This document shows, in pieces, positions 1 to 43,543 of a DNA stretch of 64,000 bases. Position 1 is the first letter of the stretch. Each line of letters opens with the position of its first letter. Source of the DNA: Limibacillus sp. (GTDB taxonomy: Bacteria > Pseudomonadota > Alphaproteobacteria > Kiloniellales > CECT-8803); assembly GCA_037379885.1 (NCBI GenBank), contig JARRJC010000026.1:1-64000 (forward strand), written 5' to 3'. A model generated the notes under the pieces. The model was not told the DNA's origin and ran no database searches. It worked only from the letters and a program-made list of their open reading frames with translations. The position numbers were made by a program, and so were the translations under genes.

Positions 1-113
1 GCCGGCTCGACGCCGAATGGGTCGAGGGAGCGAGAAACGCTTCATTGGCCGATAATTGGGATCCCTGGGGTGCCGAAGAAAGCATCCAGACGATGCGCAA
101 GCTCGACTCCTAG
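1..113 (+). CDS. C-terminal end of an unidentified protein (cut by left edge)
   Basis: An open frame read from base 3 runs to a TAG at 111-113, giving 36 residues. It is rich in acidic residues and Trp, with the stretch NASLADNWDPWGAEE, and ends MRKLDS. Codon use fits the rest of the window, so this looks like the end of a real gene that starts outside. The family cannot be recognised from so short a piece. It is the nearest upstream gene to the class I isoprenoid enzyme at 383, 270 bases away, and a strong terminator lies between them. Confidence 0.55.
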   Translation, partial: RLDAEWVEGARNASLADNWDPWGAEESIQTMRKLDS

Positions 114-211
114 CGGGTCGATGAAAGAAAGGACGCCGCTTCCTCCAGAGACTGAATCCCTTGGGGCTCGTGATTGGCGCTTGATGGATCAGTAAGGGGC
201 AACCAAGAAGC

Positions 212-269
212 GGTGGTGGGGGCCATGGCGGTGCGGTCTTCGAACGACCGTTTCGAACGCCCCACCACC
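212..269 (+). other. Nested inverted repeat (folded RNA candidate)
   Basis: GGTGGTGGGG at 212-221 pairs perfectly with CCCCACCACC at 260-269. Inside lies a second small hairpin, CGGTC (234-238) with GACCG (246-250), loop TTCGAAC. If transcribed, the outer stem would bury the purine-rich ribosome site of the mini-ORF starting at 225. Together with the terminator at 316-348 this could be a small RNA or a cis-acting leader. No known RNA family was recognised. Confidence 0.4.
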
Positions 270-305
270 TGGATGCCGGTCCTTTTGAACGGTGAGGCAC
301 CCTAA
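225..305 (+). CDS. Possible 26-residue Trp-containing peptide
   Basis: ATG at 225 follows a GGTGGTGGGGG purine run and opens a 26-codon frame ending TAA at 303-305, ten bases before a strong intrinsic terminator. The product begins MAVRSSNDRF and ends MPVLLNGEAP, with one Trp at residue 16. It has no signal peptide and no recognised family. It matters because the next gene is a ComQ-like prenyl enzyme, and ComQ enzymes prenylate a Trp in a small peptide encoded next to them. The start region is also inside an inverted repeat, so the segment may be RNA rather than a coding gene. Coding status is uncertain. Confidence 0.25.
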   Translation: MAVRSSNDRFERPTTWMPVLLNGEAP

Positions 306-315
306 GAGCTAGATG

Positions 316-348
316 GGCGGTTCCGCGGCAATACGCGGAACCGCCTTT
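316..348 (+). terminator. Intrinsic terminator
   Basis: GGCGGTTCCGCG (316-327) and CGCGGAACCGCC (334-345) form a perfect 12-bp stem with loop GCAATA, followed by TTTC. It closes whatever is transcribed from the segment starting near base 114 and insulates the gene at 383. Confidence 0.8.
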
Positions 349-382
349 CAAGTCTCTGGGTCTTCGAGAAGGGGGGCGATCC

Positions 383-1450
383 ATGTCAAAGACAACAAGA
401 AGCCTGATGAGCGGCGAGACCAGCTACGGCGAGCAGTTGCTCAATGCGGACCAGAGAGCCGAAGCGGACGCCATGATCCGGGAGACCTGTCTGGGGCTTG
501 GCTGGCCGTCACTGGCCGAACGCCTGAAGCTGCCGCACCGCTCCGGGTTCATCATCTACCATGTGCCCGGCATCGCAGCGCGCGCTCTGGGGTGCGAGCC
601 CTCGGCCGCCGCTGGCGCGGTCATGCACGTCTTGACCGCTGCCTTCAAGATGATCGACTGGCTGCTGGACGAGGAGGACTGGCCGGATATGGAGAGCGAG
701 GGGGAAGGCCGCCTCGCCAACAGCGCTCAGGCGGCGACCGCCGTCGCCTTCCGTCTGGTTGACCACGTGAGTGAGGACGAGAGGGTCCGCCTGTCCCTCC
801 GCCGGGAGCTGGAGGCCATGATCCTGCCCTTCTGTCTGGCGCAGGACGGCAGCGTTTGTCCCGAGCGCAGCCAGGAAGTCTACTGGCGCACGGTGGATGG
901 CACGACCGGCAGTCTTTTCTCTTTCGGGCTCAGCCTCGGGGCGCGGGCCGTCTGCGGGCCGGAGAGCGCCGGTTGGGCGGCGAAGTTCGCGCCGCTCGGT
1001 CTCGGTCTCGCCCGGCTCCTTCAGGTAAACGACGATCTTACCGACGCCATCAAGACTCCGGAAGAGCCCGACTGGACCGGACGGACGCTGAACCTGACGA
1101 TTCTCTATGCAGAGACCGCGGATCATCCGGAGCGGGAGGTCTTCCGGGAGCGTCTCCATGACGGCACTGCCTTTGCGGAGATGGAAGAGATGATCGACAT
1201 CCTGTTCCGCAGCGGTGCGGTCAGCTTCTCCACGCTTTCCTTGATTTCCCAGTATCAGAAGGCCTGCGCCGAGGTGGCCGCCGTCGCGCCGCCCGACAGC
1301 ACGCCCTTCGAGAAGACGCTGAAGCACCTTGTGGCGCCGAGTCTCTTCTTGCTGGAGGAGGTCACAGGCGAGGCGGCCGACCACTACCTGACCATGGACA
1401 TCCCGGCGTTCCTGGAGAAGGCAAGCCGCTTCGAGAGGGCGGCAAGGTAG
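383..1450 (+). CDS. ComQ-like class I isoprenoid synthase family protein
   Basis: 355 residues with the layout of a trans-isoprenyl diphosphate synthase. An acidic first region sits at residues 91-100 (IDWLLDEEDW). A helix with GTTGSLFSFG at about 173-182 takes the place of the usual KT/A-L helix. A canonical second Asp-rich motif DDLTD spans 217-221, followed by GRTLNLTILYA (233-243), which matches the G-K-x-T-L-P-L-x-Y-A block of polyprenyl synthases. The first motif departs from the usual DDxxD, as in ComQ-type and other divergent members. Such enzymes bind allylic diphosphates through Mg2+; ComQ members prenylate a peptide Trp, others make short prenyl diphosphates. The substrate here is unknown. 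The gene stands alone, preceded by a good ribosome site and convergent with the quinone oxidoreductase gene. Fold assignment is fairly sure, function is not. Confidence 0.7.
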   Translation: MSKTTRSLMSGETSYGEQLLNADQRAEADAMIRETCLGLGWPSLAERLKLPHRSGFIIYHVPGIAARALGCEPSAAAGAVMHVLTAAFKMIDWLLDEEDWPDMESEGEGRLANSAQAATAVAFRLVDHVSEDERVRLSLRRELEAMILPFCLAQDGSVCPERSQEVYWRTVDGTTGSLFSFGLSLGARAVCGPESAGWAAKFAPLGLGLARLLQVNDDLTDAIKTPEEPDWTGRTLNLTILYAETADHPEREVFRERLHDGTAFAEMEEMIDILFRSGAVSFSTLSLISQYQKACAEVAAVAPPDSTPFEKTLKHLVAPSLFLLEEVTGEAADHYLTMDIPAFLEKASRFERAAR

Positions 1451-1455
1451 AGGGA

Positions 1456-1487
1456 GCGGCGCCCCTGTGAAGGAGCGCCGCCTGTTC
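1456..1487 (+). terminator. Weak hairpin between convergent genes
   Basis: GCGGCGC (1456-1462) pairs with GCGCCGC (1475-1481) around a 12-base loop and is followed by a pyrimidine run, CTGTTCCCCTTT. It sits between the isoprenoid enzyme stop and the converging qor-type gene. The poor T run makes it a modest candidate. Confidence 0.45.
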
Positions 1488-1491
1488 CCCT

Positions 1492-2466
1492 TTACGGCAG
1501 AATGACCGTTGAGCCGGTCGTCTTCCGCGCTTCCAGATCGCGGTGCGCCTGTTCGGTCTCGCTCAGAGGATAGGTCTGGTTGACCTCGATCTTGAGCGCG
1601 CCCTTGGTGACGACATCGAAGAGCGCGCTGGCGCTCTCCACGAGGTCCGAACGGCTGGCTGTGTAGGTCATCAGCGTCGGGCGGGTCACGTAGAGCGAGC
1701 CCTTGGCCGACAGGATACCGAGGTTGACCGGCGGCACCGGACCGGAGGCATTGCCGAAGGTGACCATCAGGCCGCGCGGCTGCAGGCAGTCGAGCGCGCC
1801 TTCCCAGGTGTCCTTGCCCACGCCGTCGTAGACGACAGGTACGCCCTTGCCGTCCGTGATCTCCTTGACCTTCTCGGCGAAGTTCTCCTCGCGGTAGTTG
1901 ATCACGTGATCGGCGCCGTGCGCCTTGGCCAGGGCGCACTTCTCTTCCGAGCCCGCCGTTCCGATGACCGTCGCGCCGATGTGCTTCAGCCATTGGCAGG
2001 CCATCAGGCCGACGCCGCCGGCGGCCGCCTGCCACAGGACCGTATCGCCCGGCTTCACCGGATAGGTGCGCCGGATCAGGTACTCCACCGTCATGCCCTG
2101 GAGCATCATGGCGGCGGCGGTTTTGTCGTCGATGGCGTCGGGCAGCTTGACGACGCGGTTCGCCGGGATCAGCCGCTCTTCGGCATAGGCGCCCAGCGGC
2201 GGCGTCGCATAGGCAACCCGGTCACCGACCGCGAGATCGGTGACGCCGGGGCCGGTGGCGATCACCTCGCCCGCCGCCTCCATGCCGATCACCAGCGGCG
2301 GTTCGACCGGATAGAGGCCGGTGCGGTGATAGACATCGATGTAGTTGAGGCCGATGGCCGTTTGCTTCAGGCGCACCTGGCCCTCGCCGGGATCCCCGAC
2401 CTCGACGTCCACGTACTTCAGGACTTCCGGGCCGCCGGTCTCTTCGATGCGGATGGCTTTAACCAT
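1492..2466 (-). CDS. NADPH:quinone oxidoreductase, zinc-free MDR family
   Basis: 324 residues, the usual length for the zinc-independent quinone oxidoreductase branch of the medium-chain dehydrogenase/reductase family. The N-terminal GroES-like domain includes the family stretch IGLNYIDVYHRTGLY near residues 38-52. The Rossmann domain has the nucleotide motif AAAGGVGLMACQW near 148-160, and the protein ends in GSTVILP. No structural-zinc Cys cluster is visible. The predicted reaction is NADPH-dependent reduction of quinones or reactive enones in the cytoplasm. It is followed on the same strand by nothing within the window; its upstream neighbour is the dienelactone hydrolase gene, 50 bases away, so the two may be co-transcribed. 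Family is clear; the physiological substrate is not. Confidence 0.9.
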   Translation of the reverse strand: MVKAIRIEETGGPEVLKYVDVEVGDPGEGQVRLKQTAIGLNYIDVYHRTGLYPVEPPLVIGMEAAGEVIATGPGVTDLAVGDRVAYATPPLGAYAEERLIPANRVVKLPDAIDDKTAAAMMLQGMTVEYLIRRTYPVKPGDTVLWQAAAGGVGLMACQWLKHIGATVIGTAGSEEKCALAKAHGADHVINYREENFAEKVKEITDGKGVPVVYDGVGKDTWEGALDCLQPRGLMVTFGNASGPVPPVNLGILSAKGSLYVTRPTLMTYTASRSDLVESASALFDVVTKGALKIEVNQTYPLSETEQAHRDLEARKTTGSTVILP

Positions 2467-2516
2467 GTGTTTTCAGGCTCCGTTGTTATTCTTGATGGGA
2501 TGGTCCGCCGTTGGCC

Positions 2517-3209
2517 TCAGCCGAGGTTCTGCTTGAAGCAAGCGGCGCTCCGCTCGTTGGCGAGCTTCGCCGCCTCGGCGTCGTAGTGGGCGCCGCCCTC
2601 GCGCGCGAAGGCGTGGTCCTGGCCCTCGTAGACGTGAAGCGTCACCTGAGGGTGGCCGGAAAGCGCGGCCTTGATCTTCTCCTGAGCTTCCTTGGGTACG
2701 AATTGGTCTTCGCTCGCGATGTGCAACAGGGTCGGCTTGGTGATGTTTTCGGCCTCACCCAGAAGCTCATCGAGTCCGACGCCGTAATAGCTGACGTTGC
2801 AGTCGGCGTCCGAGCGGGTCGCCATCAGGAAGGCCATCTTGCCGCCGAGGCAGTAACCGACCGTACCGGCCTTGCCGTTGGTTGCGTCATGATCGCGCAG
2901 CGCGGCGAGCGAGGCCTTCAGGTCCTCGACCCCCTTTTCCACGTCGAAGGCGCCGAAGAGCTCGAAGGCGCGGGCCCACTCGGCCTCGGTCTTGTCGGTG
3001 ATGTCGATGCCCGGCTCGATGCGCCAGAAGATGTCGGGGCAGCAGGCGACATAGCCCTGGGCCGCCAGGCCATCGCAGATGTCGCGCATGACTTGGTTCA
3101 CGCCGAAGATCTCCTGGATCACCAGGATCCCGGGTGCTGGCGTTTGCGCGGGCAAGGCCACGTAGGCGTCGAAGCTGCCATCGGGCGTGGAAACGGTCAT
3201 TTTGCTCAT
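2517..3209 (-). CDS. Dienelactone hydrolase family protein
   Basis: 230 residues, typical for this alpha/beta hydrolase family. The catalytic triad is visible: Cys120 in VGYCLGG, Asp168 in ASEDQF, His199 in GQDHAF, with the conserved Glu33 in IQEIFG. Family members hydrolyse dienelactones in aromatic degradation, but many act on unknown esters or lactones, and no aromatic pathway genes are near. The frame stays open further upstream, but I chose the ATG at 3209 (MSKMTVSTPDG) because GGGAGGA lies about 8 bases before it and family similarity begins there. It probably shares a transcript with the quinone oxidoreductase gene downstream. Confidence 0.88.
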   Translation of the reverse strand: MSKMTVSTPDGSFDAYVALPAQTPAPGILVIQEIFGVNQVMRDICDGLAAQGYVACCPDIFWRIEPGIDITDKTEAEWARAFELFGAFDVEKGVEDLKASLAALRDHDATNGKAGTVGYCLGGKMAFLMATRSDADCNVSYYGVGLDELLGEAENITKPTLLHIASEDQFVPKEAQEKIKAALSGHPQVTLHVYEGQDHAFAREGGAHYDAEAAKLANERSAACFKQNLG

Positions 3210-3282
3210 GGTGTCTGTCCTCCCTTGGATTTTCATTCTGACCCCGCCGGCGCGGGAGTCTAGCCGCAATGCCACCGCCTTG

Positions 3283-3768
3283 TCAGCCGAAGGGCAGAGC
3301 GGGCTCTCCGCGCTCCAGCGCGAGGAGCAGGCGTTTATCCGCGACGCCGCCCGCCGCGGAGAATCCGACCATCCCGCCGCCGCCGCCGAGAACCCGGTGG
3401 CAGGGGATGACGATGGGTATGGGGTTGGACCCGCAGGCCCCGCCCACCGCGCGGGCGACCGAGCCGATCCGTCCGGCGAGTTCGCCATAGGTCTCGCTCT
3501 TGCCATAGGGAATCTCGGTCATCGCGCGCCAGACCTTCTGTTGATAGGCGCTGCCCGCGGGGGCGAGCGGCAAGTCGAAGGCGCGCCGGGTTCCGTCGAA
3601 GTAGCCCCTCAGTTGGTCGAGCGCTTCTTGCGCCAGGGCGTTCTCTGCCGCCGCTCCCTCTTTTTGCTCCAGACCCTCGCCCCAGGTAATCCGGGTGATG
3701 GCCTCACCTTCCACCGTGACCAGGAGGGCCCCCAAGGGGGAGTCCGCTAGGAGCGCGCTCGCCGTCAC
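3283..3768 (-). CDS. ogt: Methylated-DNA-protein-cysteine methyltransferase
   Basis: 161 residues, a single catalytic-domain Ogt protein. The acceptor site is IPCHRV with Cys123. The helix-turn-helix and Arg-finger region ([21 protein letters not shown], split here by its centre near residue 85) precedes it. The enzyme removes the methyl group from O6-methylguanine or O4-methylthymine and is inactivated by self-methylation. No Ada regulatory domain is present. Its ATG at 3766-3768 overlaps the stop of the YyaL-type gene by four bases (ATGA on the minus strand), so it is translationally coupled and is the last gene of a two-gene unit. Confidence 0.93.
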
Positions 3769-28466: not shown

Positions 28467-28496
28467 CGGCCCCGCCAGACCGGCGGCCGTTTTTTT
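28467..28496 (+). terminator. Terminator-like hairpin in the trxA leader
   Basis: CCGCC (28472-28476) pairs with GGCGG (28482-28486) and CGG (28467-28469) with CCG (28487-28489), leaving a two-base bulge; seven Ts follow. It can end addA transcripts. Because the likely trxA promoter lies upstream of it, it might also attenuate trxA. Confidence 0.65.
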
Positions 28497-28522
28497 AACG
28501 AAGGACCAAGAGGGAAACGCTG

Positions 28523-28843
28523 ATGACCACGACGAAAGTCACCGACGGCAGCTTCGACGCCGATGTCCTCAAGGCCTCCGGCCCCGTTGTCGTCGACTTC
28601 TGGGCCGAGTGGTGCGGCCCCTGCAAGTCGATCGGCCCGGCCCTGGAGGAGATCGCCTCCGAGAAGGAAGGCAAGGTCACCATCGCCAAGCTGAACATCG
28701 ACGAGAACCCGCAGACGCCCCAGAAGTACGGCGTGCGCGGCATCCCGACCCTGATGCTCTTCAAGGACGGCCAGGTCGCCGCCACCAAGGTCGGCGCGCT
28801 GCCCAAGCAGCAGCTGATGGAGTGGGTCGAACAGAACATGTAA
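28523..28843 (+). CDS. trxA: Thioredoxin
   Basis: 106 residues, classical thioredoxin size. The active site WAEWCGPCK is at about residues 27-35 and the cis-Pro loop GIPTLMLF near 73-80. It is a general cytoplasmic disulfide reductant, recycled by thioredoxin reductase. ATG 28523 follows GAGGGAAA. The gene is flanked by a hairpin with seven Ts before it and a strong terminator after it, so it is probably a single-gene unit with its own promoter. It converges with folC. Confidence 0.96.
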
Positions 28844-28871
28844 CGCCCTCCCCCACCAGGGGACTGAGACG

Positions 28872-28908
28872 AAAAACCCCGCGCCGGGAAACTGGCGCGG
28901 GGTTTTTT
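28872..28908. terminator. Bidirectional terminator between trxA and folC
   Basis: CCCCGCGCC (28877-28885) pairs with GGCGCGGGG (28894-28902), with AAAAA before and TTTTTT after, so it works in both directions. Confidence 0.92.
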
Positions 28909-28911
28909 CAT

Positions 28912-43512: not shown

Positions 43513-43543
43513 CAAGACCCCCAGGCAAAACCTGGGGGTCTTG
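43513..43543 (+). terminator. Terminator after tRNA-Ala
   Basis: CAAGACCCCCAGG (43513-43525) pairs perfectly with CCTGGGGGTCTTG (43531-43543), loop CAAAA. The symmetric stem can also end the opposing membrane enzyme transcript. Confidence 0.85.

Follow-up and report, generated by a model that had tools for sequence, protein, structure and literature searches.

A perfect 12-bp hairpin, far beyond chance, lies just upstream of a gene for a divergent trans-prenyl-synthase-like enzyme at the left edge of the window, the stretch of 64,000 nucleotides of Limibacillus sp. analysed here, whose position 1 is also that of contig C26. The explanation that we tentatively favour involves a short peptide gene that the assembly has cut in two; behind it would come a hairpin that throttles expression from within an untranslated spacer, and then the enzyme, which would prenylate a Trp of the peptide. 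On this view a small lineage-specific cassette of two genes would have been inserted between rho and a quinone-oxidoreductase gene, and the segment would be its untranslated intergenic part. The peptide gene would start at the end of contig C19 and end at window position 113, and the enzyme would be encoded by the second gene (383-1450). Transcription would begin upstream of the peptide gene, and the hairpin would stop or trim most transcripts while a minority reads through, yielding much peptide and little enzyme. Peptides that are made on ribosomes and then modified by enzymes commonly show such a ratio. An allylic prenyl group would be placed by the enzyme on a Trp of the peptide, perhaps the one in a DPWG motif, and a 26-codon ORF inside the spacer would be accidental. 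Prenylation of Trp is suggested by the enzyme class together with two PWG-containing ORFs upstream of such enzymes. The features are listed in Table 1; bases 3-113 form the tail of the open frame at the contig edge, and no convincing gene was present in 114-366.

Table 1. Features at the left edge of the window, with positions counted from its first base
Feature	Position	Strand	Details and evidence
3' end of an ORF truncated at the contig edge, frame 3	1..113	+	Stop TAG at 111-113; ends in RLDAEWVEGARNASLADNWDPWGAEESIQTMRKLDS before the stop
Untranslated spacer from the upstream stop to the enzyme start, 269 nt	114..382	+	Predicted fold; no homologue or Rfam match
Inverted repeat with a long loop (arms 212-221 and 260-269) around a nested hairpin at about 229-255	212..269	+	1.2% of shuffles
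26-codon ORF with one Trp, most likely chance	225..305	+	Shuffles, codon score
12-bp G+C-rich hairpin with 6-nt loop, then TTTC; terminator-, attenuator- or processing-like	316..345	+	0 of 1000 shuffles
Ribosome site of the enzyme gene, AGAAGGGGGG	367..376	+	
Divergent trans-isoprenyl-diphosphate-synthase-like enzyme, 355 aa, motifs D92WLLD96 and Q214VND217D218LTD221	383..1450	+	

Chance expectation for the hairpin, the inverted repeat and the ORF of the spacer was estimated from 1000 dinucleotide shuffles of 113-382. None of the shuffles contained a hairpin of at least 12 bp, and the region 300-365 around the hairpin folded with a z-score of -7.7. The stem pairs 316-327 with 334-345 and begins ten bases past the stop of the 26-codon ORF. 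An earlier note on this DNA had called it a perfect 12-bp terminator. Stem and position were confirmed, but the T tail is weak: it consists of TTTC only, part of which pairs into an extended stem, and a terminator scan with a criterion of five T in eight did not call the hairpin. As a yardstick for the terminators of this genome, a 13-bp hairpin just after tRNA-Ala (window 43513-43543), likely a terminator, has a T-poor tail as well, whereas the terminator of rho on contig C19 has seven T. Only 21 bases separate the hairpin from the ribosome site of the enzyme, and a promoter scan found no sigma-70-like consensus in 1-1600. Both observations make the compact transcription unit proposed in the earlier note doubtful. 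Since the hairpin is beyond chance, stands so close to the ribosome site and has no promoter consensus nearby, the enzyme gene is probably transcribed through it. For a hairpin that stands between the peptide stop and the ribosome site of the enzyme, with no promoter consensus found, the simplest reading is that it trims the transcript and limits enzyme synthesis.

The remaining structure of the spacer was less striking. The perfect 10-bp inverted repeat and its nested hairpin, both described before, were found again. The repeat, counted in the shuffles as at least 10 bp with a loop of up to 60 nt, is only mildly beyond chance, and the fold of 200-310 gave a z-score of -1.6. The fold of 113-395 as a whole was significant against shuffles (z -5.35), with nearly identical MFE and centroid structures. 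When the hairpin was left out, 121-310 folded ordinarily (z -0.54), and when it was held fixed, the remaining fold gave z -2.1 or -1.5. The hairpin thus accounts for most of the significance of the 113-395 fold. In the predicted structure a 9-bp helix (145-153/351-359), found in 2.8% of shuffles, closes the element around the hairpin.

The 26-codon ORF (ATG at 225 to TAA at 305, MAVRSSNDRFERPTTWMPVLLNGEAP) is present with its single Trp. ORFs of at least 24 codons starting with ATG, GTG or TTG on the + strand occurred in 87% of the shuffles, and in 68% such an ORF contained a Trp, so that the ORF is no evidence of a gene. Its codon score was ambiguous, falling in the top 1-4% of null models and in the bottom 5% of real coding windows. 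The purine-rich ribosome site to which the earlier note had pointed, GGTGGTGGGGG, does exist, but it coincides with the left arm of the inverted repeat, and its anti-SD match covers only 4 nt. The ORF is most likely a chance ORF. Two other candidates in the spacer were rejected: an ORF from ATG121 (24 aa, Trp sixth from the end), which has no ribosome site and a codon score no better than that of shuffles, and an ORF from TTG174 (43 aa), also lacking a ribosome site.

A better candidate for a peptide gene came from the contig edge. Relatives place rho beside the quinone-oxidoreductase gene, and by this synteny contig C19, which carries rho and ends 491 bp past it, is the left neighbour of the window. 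Past rho, C19 contains the terminator, AT-richer DNA (46% GC compared to 67% for the window), the ribosome site GAGGTGA and an ORF (L073:2183-2234) that starts with MQNRNHDGSIDMNAFEA behind this strong site and runs off the contig. The window opens in a compatible frame, ending in DNWDPWGAEESIQTMRKLDS before the stop, and a gap of zero or of any multiple of three would put both ends in one frame. Without a gap the product would be MQNRNHDGSIDMNAFEASRLDAEWVEGARNASLADNWDPWGAEESIQTMRKLDS of 54 aa, whose codon score ranks in the top 0.2% of its shuffles; the piece at 1..113 alone was in the top 3% of its shuffles. This piece had no homologue and no Pfam or NCBIfam match. The Trp of its DPWG is the 15th residue from the end and thus not close to the C-terminus. 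The assembly has probably broken a single short gene into these two ORF ends. Because the contig ends do not overlap and the gap may be of any size, the joined ORF is treated here as hypothetical, and the two ends may instead come from different genes, which would count against the favoured explanation. In relatives, the junction of rho and the quinone-oxidoreductase gene holds no gene (G011), a TPR-sulfotransferase-like gene (G001) or other ORFs (G004). The junction (window 1-1490; L066, L067, L068) is a variable insertion site, occupied here by the ComQ-like gene.

The enzyme ORF starts at ATG 383, behind its own ribosome site, and is followed on its 3' side by the convergent, conserved quinone-oxidoreductase gene, with rho on the other side. 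Pfam family PF00348 (polyprenyl synthase) matched it with an E-value of 0.0022 and 17.7 bits, below the cut-off of 27. The closest PDB relatives by sequence were polyprenyl synthases, and the fold of a structure model matched prenyl synthases only; this model is of low confidence (mean pLDDT 54) and was used for the fold class alone. By sequence and model the enzyme is a divergent trans-prenyl-synthase-like protein with a predicted prenyl synthase fold. Residues invariant in three domains, one of the window and two of a distant relative, include D92, D96, Q214, D217, D218, D221, D230, W231 and N237. None of the three has an unaltered first Asp-rich motif (they read DWLLD, DNILD and DDWQD), which makes normal chain elongation doubtful. 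The SARM region reads QVNDDLTD, which gives DDLTD as the motif when aligned on the conserved Gln.

The order's 62 other genomes gave no homologue of the enzyme, and among 385 sampled genomes of the class there was one relative. A scan of the GTDB contigs with an alignment query matched only the same MAG contig (L058), no other real relative came from a single-sequence query of these contigs, from further sampling of the class or from viral contigs, plasmids or phages, and a profile search of the phylum was flooded by ordinary prenyl synthases. Across all these collections a single real relative was thus found (G132, locus L058). The DNA of the segment, searched against 63 genomes of the order at an E-value of 10, gave only chance matches of 20-40 bases. 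There was no second copy in its own genome, so it is not a repeat element. Rfam, at curated and permissive thresholds, gave no family and only sub-threshold microRNA and snoRNA matches.

The relative belongs to 'Rhodospirillales bacterium isolate C_No_T5_bin.18'. Its enzyme is a 618-aa chain of two domains, which share 23% and 27% identity with the enzyme of the window. At this locus a terminator (1424-1448) is followed by an AT-rich stretch (37% GC), a 64-aa ORF (1714-1908, MNIESILPNILPMTEFAQAIARQLSQEGSGAAGLADALSDLLIVTRTSAECIREIQPYHCPPWG) and then the enzyme, whose ORF spans 1899-3755 with a likely TTG start at 1935, 26 nt after the stop of the 64-aa ORF. The codon score of the 64-aa ORF exceeded that of all 1000 shuffles. 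The peptide ends in CPPWG, with Trp second from the end; it had no Pfam match, and neither Pfam nor NCBIfam recognised an NHLP-type leader in it. PWG is common to this peptide and to the candidate of the window (P about 0.005 by tail shuffling, for a motif picked post hoc), and beyond PWG no homology between the two was detectable. A search for a homologue of the 64-aa peptide near the window enzyme gave nothing convincing; a weak match in the window genome, inside an open frame of 291 aa (E 0.09), was rejected. The locus showed no counterpart to the stems or the 26-codon ORF of the window. The conservation of ORF and stems for which the earlier note had proposed to look was found neither in the 62 other genomes of the order nor beside this single related enzyme; to the extent that a single distant relative permits, this is the outcome that the note had named as refuting its reading. 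Its idea of a Trp peptide beside a ComQ-like enzyme was not supported for the 26-codon ORF; it draws some support from the CPPWG ORF and from the DPWG ORF ending at 113, and may be right with a different peptide. Neither the window enzyme nor its relative had a transporter, protease or receptor gene beside it, which speaks against the favoured explanation, as do the place of the window Trp and the lack of homology beyond PWG. The peptide-enzyme pair of the relative sits between a cold-shock-protein-like ORF with a terminator and a convergent histone-deacetylase-like gene, and a further ORF of 45 aa (L058:1587-1724, MSSPEYNVKLLERLLLSASLLMSAMKLCGATQDAQSSLLGGRHEH) lies in the AT-rich stretch and overlaps the start of the 64-aa ORF.

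Both loci resemble comQ-comX in that a polyprenyl-synthase-like enzyme adjoins a short candidate Trp peptide, of 54-64 aa here (PMC4008528, PMC5331326). ComX precursors have 52-73 aa and usually a Trp third or fourth from the end (PMC4008528, PMC5331326). The 26-codon ORF, with its Trp 11th from the end, does not fall within this range, and the split ORF has its 54 aa only at zero gap. The 64-aa ORF of the relative has a fitting length, and its Trp is within the range accepted by ComQ of strain RO-E-2, second to fourth from the end (PMC5331326). ComQ is about 286-309 aa long and carries PF00348, and the first and fifth Asp of its DDxxD are essential; the window enzyme is longer, with a sub-threshold match to this family, and keeps D92 and D96 with a Trp in second position. 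ComQ has a pseudo-SARM of NDxxx or GDxxx, DDxx(D) at this place being reported as unsuitable for ComQ-type Trp prenylation (PMC5331326), whereas the window enzyme has DDLTD. Furthermore, comX lies between comQ and comP, while the candidate peptide here is upstream of the enzyme, and no ComP kinase or ComA regulator is adjacent, the neighbours being the quinone oxidoreductase and rho. Judged by these sequence features the window enzyme is not ComQ, and membership of comQXPA was rejected. In a census of prokaryotic genomes, loci of the comQXPA type were found in Firmicutes only (PMC4008528). Proteobacteria go unmentioned in a review on the enzymatic prenylation of peptides from 2026 (PMC13290415).

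PalQ of Paenibacillus alvei, a C-terminal Trp prenyltransferase, is likewise a trans-IDS-like enzyme encoded beside a short precursor gene, palX (PMC10853753). As in PalX, the Trp of the relative's peptide adjoins the C-terminus. PalQ, however, needs Trp as the last residue, and the candidates have a G (relative) or 14 residues (window) after it. Unlike palQ, the gene of the window enzyme has no histidine kinase gene next to it, and the relative's peptide lacks a recognised NHLP-type leader. Compared by published residues, D89/D93, Q197 and D200/D204 of PalQ have the same spacing as D92/D96, Q214 and D217/D221 of the window enzyme. Q-x-x-DD is common across the whole prenyl synthase superfamily, and this spacing is therefore not discriminating. 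ChrPC, as cited in the 2026 review, is a two-part prenyltransferase-cyclase acting on ribosomal peptides (PMC13290415); the relative's enzyme also has two domains per chain, both trans-IDS-like, and the window enzyme has a single domain. IspB and its relatives (PF00348) share the predicted fold class with weak sequence similarity, but such canonical synthases have DDxxD as first motif and occur across the phylum, whereas the window enzyme has DWLLD and a patchy presence. We regard it as possible, though doubtful, that the peptide-enzyme pair works like PalQ or ComQ.

The hairpin could also simply serve as the ordinary terminator for some unrelated gene upstream, with the enzyme acting on small isoprenoids as an atypical prenyl diphosphate or terpene-type synthase. 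This is rather unlikely in our judgement. In its favour, all neighbours in sequence and fold are ordinary prenyl diphosphate synthases, the SARM-like NDDLTD is intact in a form reported as unsuitable for ComQ-type prenylation (PMC5331326), and the link to a peptide comes from one distant relative of 23-27% identity, which, like the weak T tail, also speaks against the favoured explanation. The altered first Asp-rich motif of all three domains speaks against such a role, as do the short PWG ORFs found just upstream of the enzyme at two loci of different gene context. Moreover, a full terminator at 345 would leave the enzyme without a visible promoter.

Three further explanations concern the spacer itself. 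The segment may be the enzyme's own 5' leader, with transcription starting within about 114-200 and the stems acting as a cis-regulatory RNA (attenuator or sensor). Folding of 113-395 as a unit with its closing helix would agree with this, but there is no promoter consensus, Rfam match or homologue for covariation, the fold minus the hairpin is only marginally better than that of shuffles, and the relative has no such leader between peptide ORF and enzyme; we consider it unlikely. A free-standing small RNA ending at the hairpin, also suggested in the earlier note, appears still less probable: a stable stem and a terminator-like 3' end agree with it, but the body (121-310) is not unusually stable and promoter consensus, Rfam match and homologues in the 62 other genomes of the order are lacking. 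Least probable, and in our view very improbable, is that the 26-codon ORF encodes a ComX-like substrate of the enzyme. Its codon score, its single Trp and the order of peptide and enzyme in the relative agree with this, but an ORF of this kind is expected by chance, its ribosome site is buried in a stem, it has no counterpart in the relative, and it is too short with a wrongly placed Trp for a ComX-type precursor.

Returning to the split peptide gene with its throttling hairpin, a broader version would be a two-gene cassette in rare Alphaproteobacteria, consisting of a short Trp peptide and a single- or double-domain trans-IDS-like prenyltransferase, in which an intercistronic hairpin sets the ratio of peptide to enzyme and a prenylated-Trp peptide is made outside the Firmicutes comQXPA system. 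This generalisation is conceivable rather than likely. If true, the range of Trp prenylation would extend to a compact pair of peptide and enzyme in Alphaproteobacteria, and two specific substrate-enzyme pairs would be testable in E. coli. If the peptide reading fails, what remains is an orphan gene for a prenyl-synthase-like protein, preceded by a strong hairpin.

A perfect hairpin of 14 bp with an 8-nt loop was also seen elsewhere in the window (28872-28907), near the start of the minus-strand ORF 28495-28911.
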